46,867 bases of DNA from Gammaproteobacteria bacterium (lineage in GTDB: Bacteria > Pseudomonadota > Gammaproteobacteria > Nevskiales > Nevskiaceae). Below the pieces are notes generated by a model. The model did no database searches. It was given only the letters and a program-made list of their open reading frames with translations, and was not told the DNA's origin. Shown here in pieces: positions 27,627-33,040 of this stretch; position 1 is the first letter of the stretch, and each line of letters starts with the position of its first letter. The position numbers and the translations under genes are program-made. The stretch is from NCBI GenBank assembly GCA_028871525.1, contig JAGWMX010000009.1, positions 1 to 46,867 on the forward strand. The letters are read 5' to 3'.

Positions 27627-29726
27627 ATGATCCGGCCGCGCCTGAGCGTCCGCCAGCGGCTGCTGGGCCTGGTCCTGGCCCTGCTGGCGATTTTCGCCGG
27701 CATCAGCCTGCTGCTCGGCAACCTGGTGATCGGCAATCTCAACGATCAGCGCGCTATCCAGGAGCAGTATCGGCGGTTTGACGTGATTCAAACTGTTGCA
27801 CAAGACCTGCTGGTTTACCGCCAAGAAGGCGGCAAATGGAATCTTGCCATGATGCGGGAAGCTCCACCGGCTGAGGTACAGCGAGCGCGGGCGGGACTGG
27901 ATCGCGCCAGGCACACGCTGGATGAACAGTTACTGCGGCTGAAAGCGTTCGATCCGGCCGTGGTCAGGGTCGTCGACGCTGCTTTGCAGGGCCTGGACGT
28001 CAATGCCAAGAGCGCCGTCGAGGCCACCCTTCAACAAGATACCAAAACGCTTGCCGCCCTTATTCGCGACATCCAGGCACGTTTCGATCGGATCAGCGAC
28101 TCGCTGGGTGACGCCATCGCTCGCCAACAGACGGTATCAGACACCATTCTGCAGCGCAGCGCGCAGCGGGCCGAAACCGCGGTAACAGAGGCCGGGATGG
28201 CGATCGCGTTGGGCAGCGCGTTGGGCCTGATGCTGCTGCTGATGGTGCTGCGCTCGATCCTGCGGCCGCTGCGGACGCTGACCGCGGCCATCCGTCAGGT
28301 CAACGCCGGGCAGACGGTGATCGATCTGCCGCAGGTGACGGCGGACGAGTTCGGCGAAACCGCGCTGGCGCTGCATCAGTTCCGCGACCACGCCGAGAAG
28401 CTGCAGCGGCTGGCCTACGAGGATCCGCTGACCGGGCTCGGCAACCGCGCGCGGCTGGAACAGCGGCTGCGGGCCACGATCGCCACGCACGGCGACCGCC
28501 GGCAGTGCTTCGCGCTGCTGTATCTGGACCTGGACAACTTCCGCGCCGTCAACGACCGCTTGGGCTACCGCGCCGGCGACCGCTACCTGGTCGAGGCGGT
28601 GACGCGCATGCGCCGTTTCGCGCCCGACGACGCGCTGCTGTGCCGGTTCAGCGGCGACAAGTTCGTGGCGGTGGTCGAGGAGCTGCCGCCGGCAGCGGCC
28701 GAACACCTGCAGCGGATCGCCGACGCCGTGCTGCGCGGCCTGGCCGAACCGTATCCGGTCGGCGCCGAGCTGCTGAACATGTCGGTTTCGATCGGCGTCG
28801 CGCTGTATCCGGACGACGGCGGCAGCGTCGAGCAGTTGATCAGTAGCGCCGAGGCCGCGGTCTATGCCGCCAAGCAGAGCGGGCGCAACAACGTGCGCTT
28901 CGCCTCCGGCAGCCTGACCGCCGCGCTGCGGCAGGAACTGGCGCTGGCCGGCGAGATCCGCGCCGGCCTGCAGCGCGGCGAATTCGAGCCGTTCTACCAG
29001 CCGATCGTCGACGTCGCCGTGCACCGCGTCGCCGGCGCCGAGGCGCTGCTGCGCTGGCGGCATCCGCAGCGCGGCCTGCTGCTGCCCGACGCCTTCATCG
29101 CCGCGGCGGAGAACCAGGGTCTGATCGCCGAACTCGGCGAACACATCCTGCGCAGCGCCCACGCCCAGGTGCGGCGCTGGCGGCTGCTGCGCCGCGCCTG
29201 GTGCGTCGGGGTCAACCTGTCGGCGCGGCAGTTGCAGCAGGCGCGGATCCTGCCGCCGCTGCAGGAGCTGCAGCGGCAGGACGCCGCGGCCAGCGCCGCG
29301 CTCGACCTGGAGCTGACCGAGAGCGTGCTGTTCGACAGCTCCGAGGTCACGCGCCGCACGCTGGAGGCGATCAAACGCCTGGGCTACCGGCTCGGCATCG
29401 ACGACTTCGGCACCGGCTATTCGTCGTTTTCGATGCTGCAGCAGTTTCCGATCGACAAGATCAAGATCGACCGGCAGTTCGTCGTCACCATGGAGCGCTC
29501 GCGCGCGGCGCAGGCGATCGTCTCGGCGATGCTGACGCTGGCCGCCAGCCTCGGGCTGGAGGTGGTGGCCGAAGGCGTCGAGACCTCCGCGCAGTCGCTG
29601 CGCCTGCAGACCCAGGGCTGCCGGCTGCAGCAGGGGTTTTTCTTTTCGCGCGCGATGCCGGCCGGGGAGTTCGAGCGCTGGACCGCCGTCTTCGAAGGCG
29701 GGTCCGAGCCGGTCGACGACGCCTGA
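27627..29726 (+). CDS. Membrane-bound GGDEF-EAL protein, probable c-di-GMP phosphodiesterase with degenerate GGDEF
   Basis: A 699-residue signalling protein. One N-terminal membrane helix (residues ~10-33), a ~160-residue periplasmic helical sensor region, a second membrane helix (~190-210), a HAMP domain, then GGDEF and EAL domains. The GGDEF site reads SGDKF (residues 342-346), so the cyclase is probably inactive. The EAL domain is intact: EALLRWRHP (Glu472), NLSARQL, ELTES, DDFGTGYSS (~592), IKIDRQFV and EGVET. The prediction is c-di-GMP hydrolysis, perhaps with GTP sensing by the GGDEF domain. The DNA for the sensor region (about 27780-28190) is visibly less GC-rich than the enzyme domains. 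ATG 27627 gives the compact N terminus. Confidence 0.9.
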   Translation: MIRPRLSVRQRLLGLVLALLAIFAGISLLLGNLVIGNLNDQRAIQEQYRRFDVIQTVAQDLLVYRQEGGKWNLAMMREAPPAEVQRARAGLDRARHTLDEQLLRLKAFDPAVVRVVDAALQGLDVNAKSAVEATLQQDTKTLAALIRDIQARFDRISDSLGDAIARQQTVSDTILQRSAQRAETAVTEAGMAIALGSALGLMLLLMVLRSILRPLRTLTAAIRQVNAGQTVIDLPQVTADEFGETALALHQFRDHAEKLQRLAYEDPLTGLGNRARLEQRLRATIATHGDRRQCFALLYLDLDNFRAVNDRLGYRAGDRYLVEAVTRMRRFAPDDALLCRFSGDKFVAVVEELPPAAAEHLQRIADAVLRGLAEPYPVGAELLNMSVSIGVALYPDDGGSVEQLISSAEAAVYAAKQSGRNNVRFASGSLTAALRQELALAGEIRAGLQRGEFEPFYQPIVDVAVHRVAGAEALLRWRHPQRGLLLPDAFIAAAENQGLIAELGEHILRSAHAQVRRWRLLRRAWCVGVNLSARQLQQARILPPLQELQRQDAAASAALDLELTESVLFDSSEVTRRTLEAIKRLGYRLGIDDFGTGYSSFSMLQQFPIDKIKIDRQFVVTMERSRAAQAIVSAMLTLAASLGLEVVAEGVETSAQSLRLQTQGCRLQQGFFFSRAMPAGEFERWTAVFEGGSEPVDDA

Positions 29727-29750: not shown

Positions 29751-30638
29751 TCAGTCGCCGTGTTCCGCCAGCCAGCTGCGCGCGGCTTCGGCCACCAGCG
29801 GCTCGCGATCGCCGCCGGCGCGCCGCCACAGTTCCGCCGCCGCCGCGGGCGCCATCTGCGCCAGCGCCGCGTAGGCCGCCAGCCGCGTGCGCCGGCACGG
29901 GTGGGTGCGGCTCAGGCCGTCCAGCAGCTCGCGGGTGTTGCCGTCGCCGGCGAGGCCGGCCAGACGCAGCATCGACACCCGCCGCGAGGCGTCGTCATCC
30001 GCCGGGTAGTCGAGCAGGCATTTGCGCTCGAGGTCGAAGAACAACTGGTCGCGCAGCCGCACCTCGGGTCCGGCCACCATCAGGTTCAGGCTGATGCTGA
30101 AGTCTTCCGGCGGATACTGCACGTGCAGGTCCTGGCTGGCGCGGTACAGCATCACCATGCCGCTGCGGAAATGCACCGTCTCCAGGAAGCGCATCTGCAC
30201 CGGCTCGCCGGGGTGGCCCGCCAGCGCGGCGAAGTCGTAGTCGTAGATGTCGGTGCGGTAGCCGGGGCCGAAGTGGTTGACGGTGAGGAAATCGTAGTTG
30301 TGATCGTGCGCGATGTGGTACGAAAAGCGGTCCTGGTAGATGCGGCCGGCGGAGATGTCGGCGTTCGACGGCCACAGGTTGGCGCGCACGTAGAAGCCTT
30401 CGCCGGCGCCGAGAAAGATCGACTGCGCCGAGGGGCTGACTTCGCCGGTGAACAGGTTTTCCACCAGCGCGTTGAGCCGACGCGCCACCAGTCCGCGGTC
30501 GTTGGCCAGCGCGCGCAGCCGCGGCGCGGCGCCGAGCAGGCTGTCGCGGTCCCGCAGATCGACCTCGCGGTTGACGAAATCGATGAACTCGTCCAGGCCG
30601 ACGACGTCGTCGCGATCGACCGCCAGCGTGACCGCCAT
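29751..30638 (-). CDS. Cupin-like protein with C-terminal HEAT-like repeats, putative non-haem iron oxygenase
   Basis: A 295-residue soluble protein without a signal peptide. The N-terminal helical part (1-70) leads into a beta-rich core with FLGAGEGFYVRANLWP (76-90), then a histidine cluster in YHIAHDHNYDFLTVNHFGPG (His108, His111, Asp112, His113, His122). Next comes DIYDYD, and SGMVMLYRASQDLHVQYPPE (159-178) with His172 followed by SISLNL. This order resembles the two metal-binding cupin motifs (HxH..., then H...N). Residues ~217-293 form HEAT/Armadillo-like helical repeats. The ATG is 2 bp after the stop of the upstream paralogue, so the pair is translationally coupled. A metal-dependent oxygenase role is inference; I recognise no named family. 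Confidence 0.65.
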   Translation of the reverse strand: MAVTLAVDRDDVVGLDEFIDFVNREVDLRDRDSLLGAAPRLRALANDRGLVARRLNALVENLFTGEVSPSAQSIFLGAGEGFYVRANLWPSNADISAGRIYQDRFSYHIAHDHNYDFLTVNHFGPGYRTDIYDYDFAALAGHPGEPVQMRFLETVHFRSGMVMLYRASQDLHVQYPPEDFSISLNLMVAGPEVRLRDQLFFDLERKCLLDYPADDDASRRVSMLRLAGLAGDGNTRELLDGLSRTHPCRRTRLAAYAALAQMAPAAAAELWRRAGGDREPLVAEAARSWLAEHGD

Positions 30639-30640
30639 CG

Positions 30641-31492
30641 TCAGCCCGGCTGCCGCAGCGCCTGCAGGCTGCGCTGCGCCGCCTTGCGCAGGTGCGGGTG
30701 CGGGTCGCCGTCGGCGGCGCGCTGCAGCCGCTCCAGCGCCGCGCTGCGGTTGACCCGCGCCAGGTTCTGGATCGCCGCCCAGCGCACCGCGTGGTGGGCG
30801 TGGCCGCTCAAAAAACTCAGCGGCTGCGCCGAAGACGGCTGCGCCAGCCGGCCCAGCACGTGGGCGGCCACCCGCAACTGGGTGAAGTTCAGCGCGGCGT
30901 CGTTGGCCTGCCAGGCGTAGCGCGTGTCGCGCTTGAACAGCCATTCCAGCGGCCGGATGGCGGCGCTGGTGAACTTGAGAACCGGCAGCGGCCGCGCCGG
31001 CGGCTTGAAGTCGTAGACGTACTGCTCGCCGCGCAGCAGCAGCAGGCCGCCGGGCCCGGTGCAGCCGGCGCCGGCCGGCGTCAGGCGCTGGCCCGGATCG
31101 AACACCTCGTTGCGGTGGTCCGGCGGCAGCTGGTACAGGTCGTAGCGCAGGCTGTCCGCGCCCAGCGGCGCGAACATGCCGTGAAACGGCGTGCTGTGCA
31201 GGTACTGCCGCGGCTGCTCGAACAGCCAGATCGCCAGCGCCCAGCCGCGGCCGCGGTGGGCGATCAACTGGTTCAACTGCCAGTCGCCGAAGTGGCCGGG
31301 ATCCAGGCACAGCCGTTCCAGCTCGCGGTTCAGGTACGCGGCGGCCCAGCCGCTATGCGCCAGCGCGCAGAACTCGTCGCCCAGCGCCCAGAAGCTCTGC
31401 GGCCGCTCGCGGTCGTAGCGGCCGCAGACCTGCTCGACGAAAATGTCCAGTGCATCGGGCGCGGCCGGCCGGCGGTCATCCATCGGGACCAT
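30641..31492 (-). CDS. HEAT-repeat protein, paralogue of the downstream cupin-like protein, histidine cluster lost
   Basis: A 283-residue cytoplasmic protein of no recognised family. Residues 1-90 are helical. The middle has FHGMFAPLGADSLRYDLYQL, RNEVFDPGQ and ALNFTQLRVAAHVLGRLA, which line up in order with GYRTDIYDYD and RRVSMLRLAGLAG of the downstream protein. The C terminus (225-283) is HEAT-like (SGHAHHAVRWAAIQNLARVN, DGDPHPHLRKAAQRSL). The metal-site-like HxxHDH run of the partner is absent, so this looks like a non-catalytic or substrate-binding subunit. Start codons at 31492 and 31483 are both possible. It follows the small peptide gene by 195 bp that contain two hairpins. Confidence 0.6.
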   Translation of the reverse strand: MVPMDDRRPAAPDALDIFVEQVCGRYDRERPQSFWALGDEFCALAHSGWAAAYLNRELERLCLDPGHFGDWQLNQLIAHRGRGWALAIWLFEQPRQYLHSTPFHGMFAPLGADSLRYDLYQLPPDHRNEVFDPGQRLTPAGAGCTGPGGLLLLRGEQYVYDFKPPARPLPVLKFTSAAIRPLEWLFKRDTRYAWQANDAALNFTQLRVAAHVLGRLAQPSSAQPLSFLSGHAHHAVRWAAIQNLARVNRSAALERLQRAADGDPHPHLRKAAQRSLQALRQPG

Positions 31493-31568: not shown

Positions 31569-31604
31569 ACAAGCCCCCGCGGCCCGACGGCGGCGGGGGC
31601 TTGT
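31569..31604 (-). terminator. Perfect 12-bp hairpin between peptide gene and HEAT genes
   Basis: ACAAGCCCCCGC at 31569-31580 pairs perfectly with GCGGGGGCTTGT at 31593-31604 (12-nt loop). It lies in the transcript downstream of the 51-aa peptide gene and upstream of the two HEAT-protein genes. There is no U-run after it in the minus direction, so it is more likely a partial attenuator or an mRNA-stabilising/processing stem than a full terminator. Confidence 0.6.
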
Positions 31605-31644: not shown

Positions 31645-31670
31645 GTCAAAGCGGCCGCAGCCGCTTTGAC
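31645..31670 (-). terminator. Perfect 10-bp hairpin just after the peptide gene
   Basis: GTCAAAGCGG at 31645-31654 pairs exactly with CCGCTTTGAC at 31661-31670 (6-nt loop), 18 bp after the peptide stop codon. In the minus direction it is followed by a moderately T-rich TTGACTTTGACTT stretch. It could act as a weak terminator that keeps peptide mRNA above that of the downstream genes. Confidence 0.55.
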
Positions 31671-31687: not shown

Positions 31688-31843
31688 TCAGAGCGCCGGT
31701 TCGGGCAAACGGTAGAAATACGCGCTGAAGTAAGCCGCCTGGTTTTCCTGCGCACTGCAGGTTTCGGTGGCGCCGACGCCGGCCACATCGTACTCCAGGT
31801 CACAGACTTCCAGCGCGCCGTTATCGATCATTTGCCGTTGCAT
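31688..31843 (-). CDS. 51-aa peptide, candidate precursor of a modified peptide
   Basis: A small gene too short for usual gene callers. The peptide starts MQRQMIDNGALEVCDLEYDV, has two cysteines (Cys14, Cys29), an acidic N-terminal half and an aromatic C-terminal segment AAYFSAYFYRLPEPAL rich in Tyr/Phe. A clear GGAG ribosome site lies 10 bp before the ATG (GGAGACCCAACCC then ATG). It has no signal peptide or membrane segment. It lies first in a minus-strand set with the two HEAT/cupin-like genes, separated by two hairpins, and behind an AT-rich promoter-like segment. This leader/core-like layout fits a RiPP precursor, but no homologue is recognised and the modification is unknown. Alternatives are a regulatory leader peptide or a small protein subunit. 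Confidence 0.6.
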   Translation of the reverse strand: MQRQMIDNGALEVCDLEYDVAGVGATETCSAQENQAAYFSAYFYRLPEPAL

Positions 31844-31860
31844 GGGTTGGGTCTCCAAAA

Positions 31861-32020
31861 AAGCCTGAATGATAGGGGGTATTTATAGACTACAGGCCGC
31901 CGGCATCCGCTGTAAAGGAGTATAATGAAACACGTAATGTAATGTTTTACCTTAGTTTTTTTTTGTAATTCTATAAATTGTAAGCTGAAACTTTATTTAC
32001 GCGATAAAATCGGCTCCCGC
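31861..32020 (-). promoter_or_regulatory. AT-rich divergent regulatory region (peptide operon / hemF)
   Basis: Between the peptide start and hemF the composition drops sharply; 31921-31980 holds only 12 G or C in 60 bases in a genome that is otherwise very GC-rich. On the minus strand a TATACT -10-like hexamer (31924-31919) has a weak AAAACA 18 bp upstream, which would give a ~65-nt leader before the peptide. Runs of T/A (e.g. 31955-31964) suggest curved DNA or nucleoid-protein binding. hemF on the plus strand must also use this region. Confidence 0.5.
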
Positions 32021-32104
32021 AGAATTTATCGGCCGGCGCCACGCGCAGCGCTCGGCGGCCGCCGCAGGTGCGCCGCGCCGGCCGCTGCGCCTAGACTGGC
32101 GGCC

Positions 32105-33040
32105 ATGCAGCAGGACATTGATGCGGCGGCGGTCGAACGCTATCTGCGCGCACTGCAGCAGCGGCTGTGCGGCGCCCTGGAAACCTTCGAGGAAACCTTC
32201 GAGCCGCAGCGGCGTTTCGCGGCCGACCTCTGGCGCCGCGCCGAAGGCGGCGGTGGCGAGACCCGGGTGCTGGCCGACGGCCGGGTGTTCGAGCAGGCCG
32301 GCGTGGCGTTTTCGCGGGTCAGCGGCGAGCGGCTGCCGGCCGCGGCCAGCGCGCAGCGGCCGCAGCTCGCCGGCCGCCGCTGGACCGCGATGGGCGTGTC
32401 GCTGGTGGTCCATCCGCGCAATCCGTACCTGCCGACCAGCCACTGCAACCTGCGTTTTTTCGTCGCCGGGGCCCCCGGCGAGCCGCCGCGGTGGTGGTTC
32501 GGCGGCGGCTTCGATCTGACGCCGTTTTATCCGTTCGACGACGACTGCCGTCACTGGCACCAGGTCGCGCTGCAGGCCTGCGCGCCGTTCGGCGAGTCGC
32601 TCTACCCGCGGCTCAAGCGCTGGTGCGACGACTACTTCTTCCTGCCGCACCGCGGCGAGGCACGCGGCATCGGCGGATTGTTTTTCGACGACTGGACCGA
32701 AGGTGGCTTCGACTCCGCCTTCGCGCTGGCGCGCAGCGTCGGCGATCACTTTCTGCCGGCCTATCTGCCGATCGTCGAGCGCCGCAAGGACACGCCGTAC
32801 GGCGCGCGCGAGCGCGACTGGCAGTTGTACCGGCGCGGGCGCTACGTCGAGTTCAACCTGGTGTGGGACCGCGGCACGTTGTTTGGGCTGCAGTCCGGCG
32901 GGCGCACCGAATCGATCCTGATGTCGATGCCGCCGCTGGCGGCTTGGCGCTACGGCCAGCCGCCCGCCGCCGGCCCGGCCGAGGCCAAACTGCGCGACTA
33001 CTTGTGCCCACGCGATTGGGTGAGGGGCTGCGCTTCGTGA
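32105..33040 (+). CDS. hemF: Coproporphyrinogen III oxidase, oxygen-dependent
   Basis: Converts coproporphyrinogen III to protoporphyrinogen IX using O2. The 311-residue product (E. coli 299) has [75 protein letters not shown] and [20 protein letters not shown], all family blocks with the conserved His and Arg/Asp active-site residues. The extreme C terminus (last residues RGCAS) and its stop codon lie inside a dispersed repeat copy that starts at 33027. ATG 32105 follows the AT-rich region shared with the divergent peptide gene. Confidence 0.95.

Follow-up and report, generated by a model that had tools for sequence, protein, structure and literature searches.

What does a short, unannotated frame of 51 codons do at the head of two genes for enzyme-like proteins? 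The frame, here called P, lies on the minus strand of a stretch of 46,867 nucleotides (positions 1 to 46,867 of contig JAGWMX010000009.1, assembly GCA_028871525.1, from a gammaproteobacterium of the Nevskiaceae), to which we refer as the window. An earlier, sequence-only reading had taken P for an overlooked gene whose product looks like the precursor of a modified peptide, with the two following proteins, A and B, as the modifying enzymes. We consider it likely that P encodes the precursor peptide of an undescribed pathway of the RiPP (ribosomally synthesized and post-translationally modified peptide) kind, in which A would be the recognition partner and B an iron oxygenase. P, A and B follow one another on the same strand, with 2 nucleotides between A and B:

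31688-31843, minus strand: gene P, 51 amino acids, ATG start at 31843 and TGA stop, identified from homologues and codon pattern
31853-31856, minus strand: GGAG ribosome-binding site of P, 9 nucleotides before the ATG, read from the sequence
30641-31483, minus strand: protein A, 280 amino acids, thiol-dioxygenase-type cupin with C-terminal HEAT repeats (Pfam HEAT_2, model, fold match)
29751-30638, minus strand: protein B, 295 amino acids, thiol-dioxygenase-type cupin with C-terminal HEAT repeats (model, fold match, invariants over 88 sequences)

The frame 31688-31843 translates as MQRQMIDNGALEVCDLEYDVAGVGATETCSAQENQAAYFSAYFYRLPEPAL followed by the stop, and P is a real gene, far beyond chance. 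A search of 100 related genomes with P as a single sequence found homologues in 16 (E 1.3e-12 to 8e-5), and a P profile found them in 17 (E 4e-27 to 7e-19), with the reservation that our profiles, here and below, were partly trained on the sequences counted; this does not apply to the single-sequence Nevskiaceae tally and the first motif-free cluster described below. Each copy is an open frame, and all homologues lie near A and B. According to public contig records, the relatives carrying P belong to Nevskia, Hydrocarboniphaga, Stagnimonas and other Nevskiaceae. A and B were each found in 25 of the 100 genomes, the identical set, and P was present in 17 of these 25 versus 0 of the 75 genomes without the pair (Fisher p 1.6e-13). 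Differences among the P relatives number 439, 260 and 1003 at codon positions 1, 2 and 3, respectively; they fall mainly at third positions, which is a pattern of selection at the protein level. A short, unannotated frame in a high-GC genome may arise by chance, but the conservation, the co-occurrence with A-B and the codon-position pattern refute this explanation, to which we give practically no weight, and it was rejected. The overlooked gene and its GGAG site (31856-31853) are therefore as the sequence-only reading had proposed, and the co-occurrence of the short frame with homologues of its neighbours, which it had named as something to look for, was found.

The anatomy of P was examined in an alignment of 16 distinct homologues and divides the peptide into two parts:

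31733-31843, minus strand: leader-like part of P, residues 1-37, with the conserved block LEVCDLEYDVAGVGATE..Q-ENQAA
31691-31732, minus strand: core-like variable tail of P, residues 38-51 (YFSAYFYRLPEPAL)

The homologues align through LEIC(D/E)LEYDVAxVGATExSxxEENQAA, in which L16, E17, Y18 and V20 are invariant. Mean pairwise identity is 60% in the leader-like block versus 28% beyond it, in agreement with the conserved leader and variable core that had been expected of a precursor. The front of the peptide is acidic, with a mean net charge of -6.4. Most Nevskia-type copies have YRLPE at the end of the tail, and others have FGILRRMFAG, FLFYAFIPPN, FVLYVTQDAK or FLIVMFDHT there. The conserved acidic block, which covers about residues 11-37, is thus the leader-like part, and the Tyr/Phe end belongs to the variable part and is lineage-specific. 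The emphasis placed on two cysteines was not sustained: Cys29 is unconserved and found in the window copy alone, and Cys14, present in 11 of the 16 homologues, is located inside the leader-like block.

AlphaFold2 models of A and B have pLDDT values of 93.4 and 88.8, respectively. Residues 6-194 of the A model match almost exclusively thiol dioxygenases (Z 13.3 to 8vni). Residues 10-211 of the B model match 8vni with Z 13.9 and a root-mean-square deviation of 3.9 over 169 aligned residues, and nearly all of the top 50 rows of the B fold search are thiol dioxygenases. A B profile run against PDB sequences retrieved HEAT-repeat proteins only, nearly all of them designed alphaReps, and no thiol dioxygenase, so the relation to dioxygenases rests on the fold. 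In Pfam and NCBIfam, A and B gave HEAT_2 or sub-threshold matches only, with nothing above threshold in NCBIfam, and P and its relatives matched no curated model of either collection. The description of the neighbours as HEAT/cupin-like is borne out by HEAT_2 and the fold matches, and their placement outside any described RiPP class agrees with the curated Pfam and NCBIfam families, which do not cover A or B.

Over 88 B sequences, H111, D112, H113, Y165, D170, H172, Q174 and Q198 vary little or not at all (H111 in 87, H113 in 86 and H172 in all 88), and the three-histidine site is intact in 86 of the 87 sequences readable there. His111, His113 and His172 are a putative metal site, assigned from fold and motif spacing and not from a residue-level structural superposition. 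In an alignment made by eye, H111-x-H113 and H172 coincide with the three iron ligands of cysteine dioxygenase, and Asn185 and Met187 occupy the positions of its catalytic His155 and Tyr157. The cupin part of A contains no conserved histidine, and HxH is found in 9 of 84 sequences; a three-histidine site is thus missing from A. Arg234 (84/84) and Trp235 (83/84) are conserved in its HEAT part. These features of the models and alignments suggest that A may be a dead paralogue serving recognition and B the oxygenase.

The pair is found well beyond the Nevskiaceae. One genome-wide scan with the B profile gave at least 239 A-B loci, a lower bound. Among the best 80 of the 239 are loci from Sphingomonadales, Alteromonadales, Lysobacteraceae, Oxalobacteraceae, Bacteroidota, Acidobacteriota, Actinomycetota, Myxococcota, Planctomycetota and Eremiobacterota. 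In at least seven phyla (Pseudomonadota, Bacteroidota, Acidobacteriota, Actinomycetota, Myxococcota, Planctomycetota and Eremiobacterota), A immediately precedes B. Motif-free clustering (BLAST) of short open reading frames around the loci yielded one peptide family, located immediately upstream of A at 27 Sphingomonadales loci. Profiles placed a short peptide just before A in 45 of 58 non-Nevskiaceae loci, and all 47 of 47 peptide hits outside the Nevskiaceae are on the coding strand, 871-1448 nucleotides before B; among the remaining 13 loci, 4 are cut off by a contig end and 5 have a similar frame by eye. These peptides differ from the Nevskiaceae P and mostly have an LPxL leader, such as IDIxxLPxLxxxVGxxGS, followed by divergent, mostly strongly hydrophobic tails. 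A short encoded precursor with a conserved leader and a variable core, as in RiPPs, is therefore seen in the Nevskiaceae, and LPxL leaders with divergent tails are seen elsewhere. The linkage of precursor to dedicated enzyme (17/25 versus 0/75 genomes, 45/58 loci) is genetic, and the activity of the enzyme is predicted. A plasmid search with B gave two distant hits only. On the Alteromonas plasmid CP013927, two candidate peptides lie in an unannotated gap of 467 nucleotides before A, both A and B are annotated as 'hypothetical protein', and ABC (ATP-binding cassette) genes flank the set. A contig labelled Verrucomicrobia (L096, CAJCJI010000341.1) bears a typical Nevskiaceae A-B locus and is probably a mislabelled or mixed metagenome-assembled genome (MAG).

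Within the Nevskiaceae, eight A-B loci (L085, L088-L094) have no detectable P and carry an unrelated gene upstream; a second peptide family was found there neither by short-frame listing nor by profile. The P-less loci make up a single clade that falls within the P-bearing ones (support 100/99), and this clade is exactly the eight sequences in which Asn185 of B is changed to Ser. L073 has the sole B with an altered metal motif (H113N), and the adjoining P is the most degenerate, having lost VGATE and EENQAAF. Because the loss of P with N185S and the case of L073 are each a single evolutionary event, these signs that P is coupled to the active site of B are supportive and not conclusive.

The region around P contains two hairpins and a divergent gene:

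31645-31670, minus strand: 11-bp stem-loop, 17 nucleotides past the P stop and with a T-rich stretch behind it (z -5.75 for the 51-nucleotide stretch)
31569-31604, minus strand: second stem-loop with 12-nucleotide arms, between P and A (z -3.97)
32105-33040, plus strand: hemF, coproporphyrinogen III oxidase, divergent from P

The stem-loop at 31645-31670 is terminator-like and would act as a terminator or a read-through attenuator between P and A-B. A hairpin directly past the peptide stop is common in the Nevskiaceae (mean z -2.5, 10 of 18 below -2) and in other taxa (mean z -2.6, 29 of 44 strong), compared with a strong hairpin in 0 of 18 cases after A and 3 of 18 after B. With a hairpin in this place, the precursor transcript would exceed the enzyme transcript. 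The stretch 31860-32030, between the divergent hemF and P, is unusually AT-rich for a genome of 70% GC and probably serves as the promoter region of P; a sigma-70 consensus promoter was looked for ahead of P without success.

Other neighbours of the loci vary. Three tandem peptides are present in Lysobacter L125 and two each in L124 and L127. Genes for ABC exporters come after B in several Sphingomonas loci and in loci of Thalassotalea, Alteromonas, Lysobacter, Stenotrophomonas and Blastopirellula. Tandem A-B pairs were seen in L127, L161, L162 and L164; where the upstream region is visible, each pair is preceded by a different kind of short peptide (e.g. L162:1648-1947). In a Blastopirellula MAG, a LuxR-type autoinducer-binding regulator lies between B and the ABC ATPase (L132:6914-7717), which suggests quorum control. 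The search with the Pfam model of the RRE (RiPP recognition element) found no such domain in A, B or P, which therefore do not show the arrangement of an RRE-dependent RiPP; a member of the RRE family, a PqqD protein, stands before A in one relative locus. The genes concerned, and the one beside B in the window, are as follows:

L139:3581-4015: PqqD-family protein, directly upstream of A on an Eremiobacterota contig
L139:4012-4971: uncharacterised protein of 319 amino acids, directly upstream of A on the same contig
27627-29726, plus strand: HAMP-GGDEF-EAL protein, convergent with B

Wherever the contig allows a call, the neighbour that ends beside B in the Nevskiaceae A-B loci (L070-L094) is a HAMP-region/GGDEF protein, whereas the flanks otherwise vary. 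In L080, L082 and L083, P is found more than 2 kb downstream of B, just past the convergent GGDEF-EAL gene and divergent. A link of c-di-GMP to the peptide system is possible. An anti-phage defence role was considered and rejected: PADLOC gave no match for A, B or P.

Taking the loci together, we lean towards a new, phylum-spanning RiPP class in which the thiol-dioxygenase-fold oxygenase B and its dead HEAT-repeat paralogue A would mature leader peptides with hydrophobic or aromatic cores. Our inferences, which concern the binding and cleavage of the leader, the reaction itself, export and biological role, run as follows. The A-B complex would bind the conserved acidic leader (the LEYDVxxVGATE block, or LPxL...V...G-S/T in other phyla). 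A would be catalytically dead, and its HEAT repeats with the invariant Arg-Trp would probably supply recognition. B would hold a mononuclear iron in the H111/H113/H172 site and, with O2, oxidise the C-terminal tail, which is hydrophobic or aromatic. Removal of the leader would follow, and the product would be exported or stay at the membrane, while the hairpin would make P much more abundant than A-B. Oxidation of cysteine alone is unlikely as the reaction because many linked peptides have no Cys.

Several observations weigh against this proposal. No residue conserved across all tails was found, so a single shared chemistry is not obvious. The alignment of the Nevskiaceae leader with the LPxL leaders is weak (hhalign E 0.0018, probability 15%), and shuffle tests gave a trend only; the homology of these leaders is therefore suggestive, and our claim is one of the same layout and position, not of proven common descent. 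The eight P-less loci mean that A-B can exist without P, and in L080, L082 and L083 P is not directly upstream of A. In the window, as in the majority of Nevskiaceae loci, neither a transporter nor a protease adjoins A-B, and no protease for leader removal was identified.

Other explanations were weighed. P might act without modification, either as a small partner of A-B (activating, membrane-targeting or structural) or as a small hydrophobic peptide of the bacteriocin kind that A-B would help to export. P is invariably linked to A-B, many of the tails from other phyla resemble short membrane segments, e.g. VVAGQVIAGIIIGVVIAV, and no universally conserved residue offers itself as a modification site. 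We nevertheless regard an unmodified partner as rather unlikely, since B keeps a complete putative metal site family-wide, which implies catalysis, and since the conserved front and variable tail are the reverse of what is expected for a binding tail; tandem divergent peptides and a hairpin that separates the peptide transcript also suit a substrate in excess, not a stoichiometric subunit.

Alternatively, P could be the substrate of a known type of enzyme performing ordinary chemistry, such as thiol dioxygenation of Cys14-like residues. The thiol-dioxygenase fold of both A and B, Cys14 in 11 of 16 Nevskiaceae peptides and a tail Cys in 10 of 30 sampled others would agree with it, but Cys is missing in 5 of the 16 Nevskiaceae peptides and in most Erythrobacteraceae peptides while B is conserved, and the B profile finds no thiol dioxygenase by sequence, which makes this explanation very unlikely. 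The order of P, a terminator-like hairpin and then A-B would also suit a regulatory leader frame whose translation controls read-through into A-B. Such attenuation was rejected as hardly tenable: in L080, L082 and L083 P lies where it is unable to attenuate A-B, the conservation is in the amino-acid sequence and not in codon runs, and several loci have tandem peptides. A precursor peptide matured by A and B remains the explanation that we prefer.

If it is correct, a common, unannotated gene trio would provide a search handle and at least 239 loci for new peptide-tailoring chemistry, and a fold well studied in mammalian and plant oxygen sensing would have been reused, together with a dead twin, for peptide maturation. 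To our knowledge, this would be the first peptide-tailoring role for the thiol-dioxygenase fold besides N-terminal cysteine oxidation. The gap in CP013927 is an example of how annotation overlooks such peptides. In the literature searched on RiPPs with cupin, HEAT or thiol/cysteine dioxygenase proteins, which took in a minority of subscription papers and no bioRxiv preprints, a thiol-dioxygenase-fold HEAT pair is not described. The trio is absent from Pfam, NCBIfam and these papers and is most likely undescribed, with an earlier description possible.

Thiol dioxygenases (cysteine dioxygenase, 3-mercaptopropionate and mercaptosuccinate dioxygenases, ADO and plant PCO) have their fold in common with B (residues 10-211) and A (residues 6-194), and share with B an H-x-H motif plus a distant His. 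Unlike these enzymes, A-B has C-terminal HEAT repeats, a dead paralogue in the pair and a peptide partner, and no sequence relation to them is detectable. Daptides are reported to combine more than one precursor per cluster with a conserved leader and multi-component ABC transporters (PMC10036551). A-B loci share the layout of several precursors with an ABC exporter, but daptides use other enzymes, none of which was seen among the neighbours scanned at A-B loci. The MNIO (DUF692) enzymes of RiPP pathways show the same organisation of a short precursor, an iron oxygenase and a partner protein, and MNIO biosynthetic gene clusters with a hypothetical partner protein have been described (PMC12257519); it is DUF692 enzymes that serve in the RiPP systems described so far with an oxygenase and a partner, and A and B differ from DUF692 in being cupin and HEAT proteins. 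The cupins that we found reported from RiPP clusters, PbsQ and BpmG among them, are accessory JmjC-type hydroxylases in clusters with B12-dependent radical SAM enzymes and MNIOs (PMC12257519). B resembles them, by prediction, as a cupin-fold oxygenase acting on a ribosomal peptide, but they are accessory, whereas the A-B cupin pair is the sole candidate maturase of its loci.
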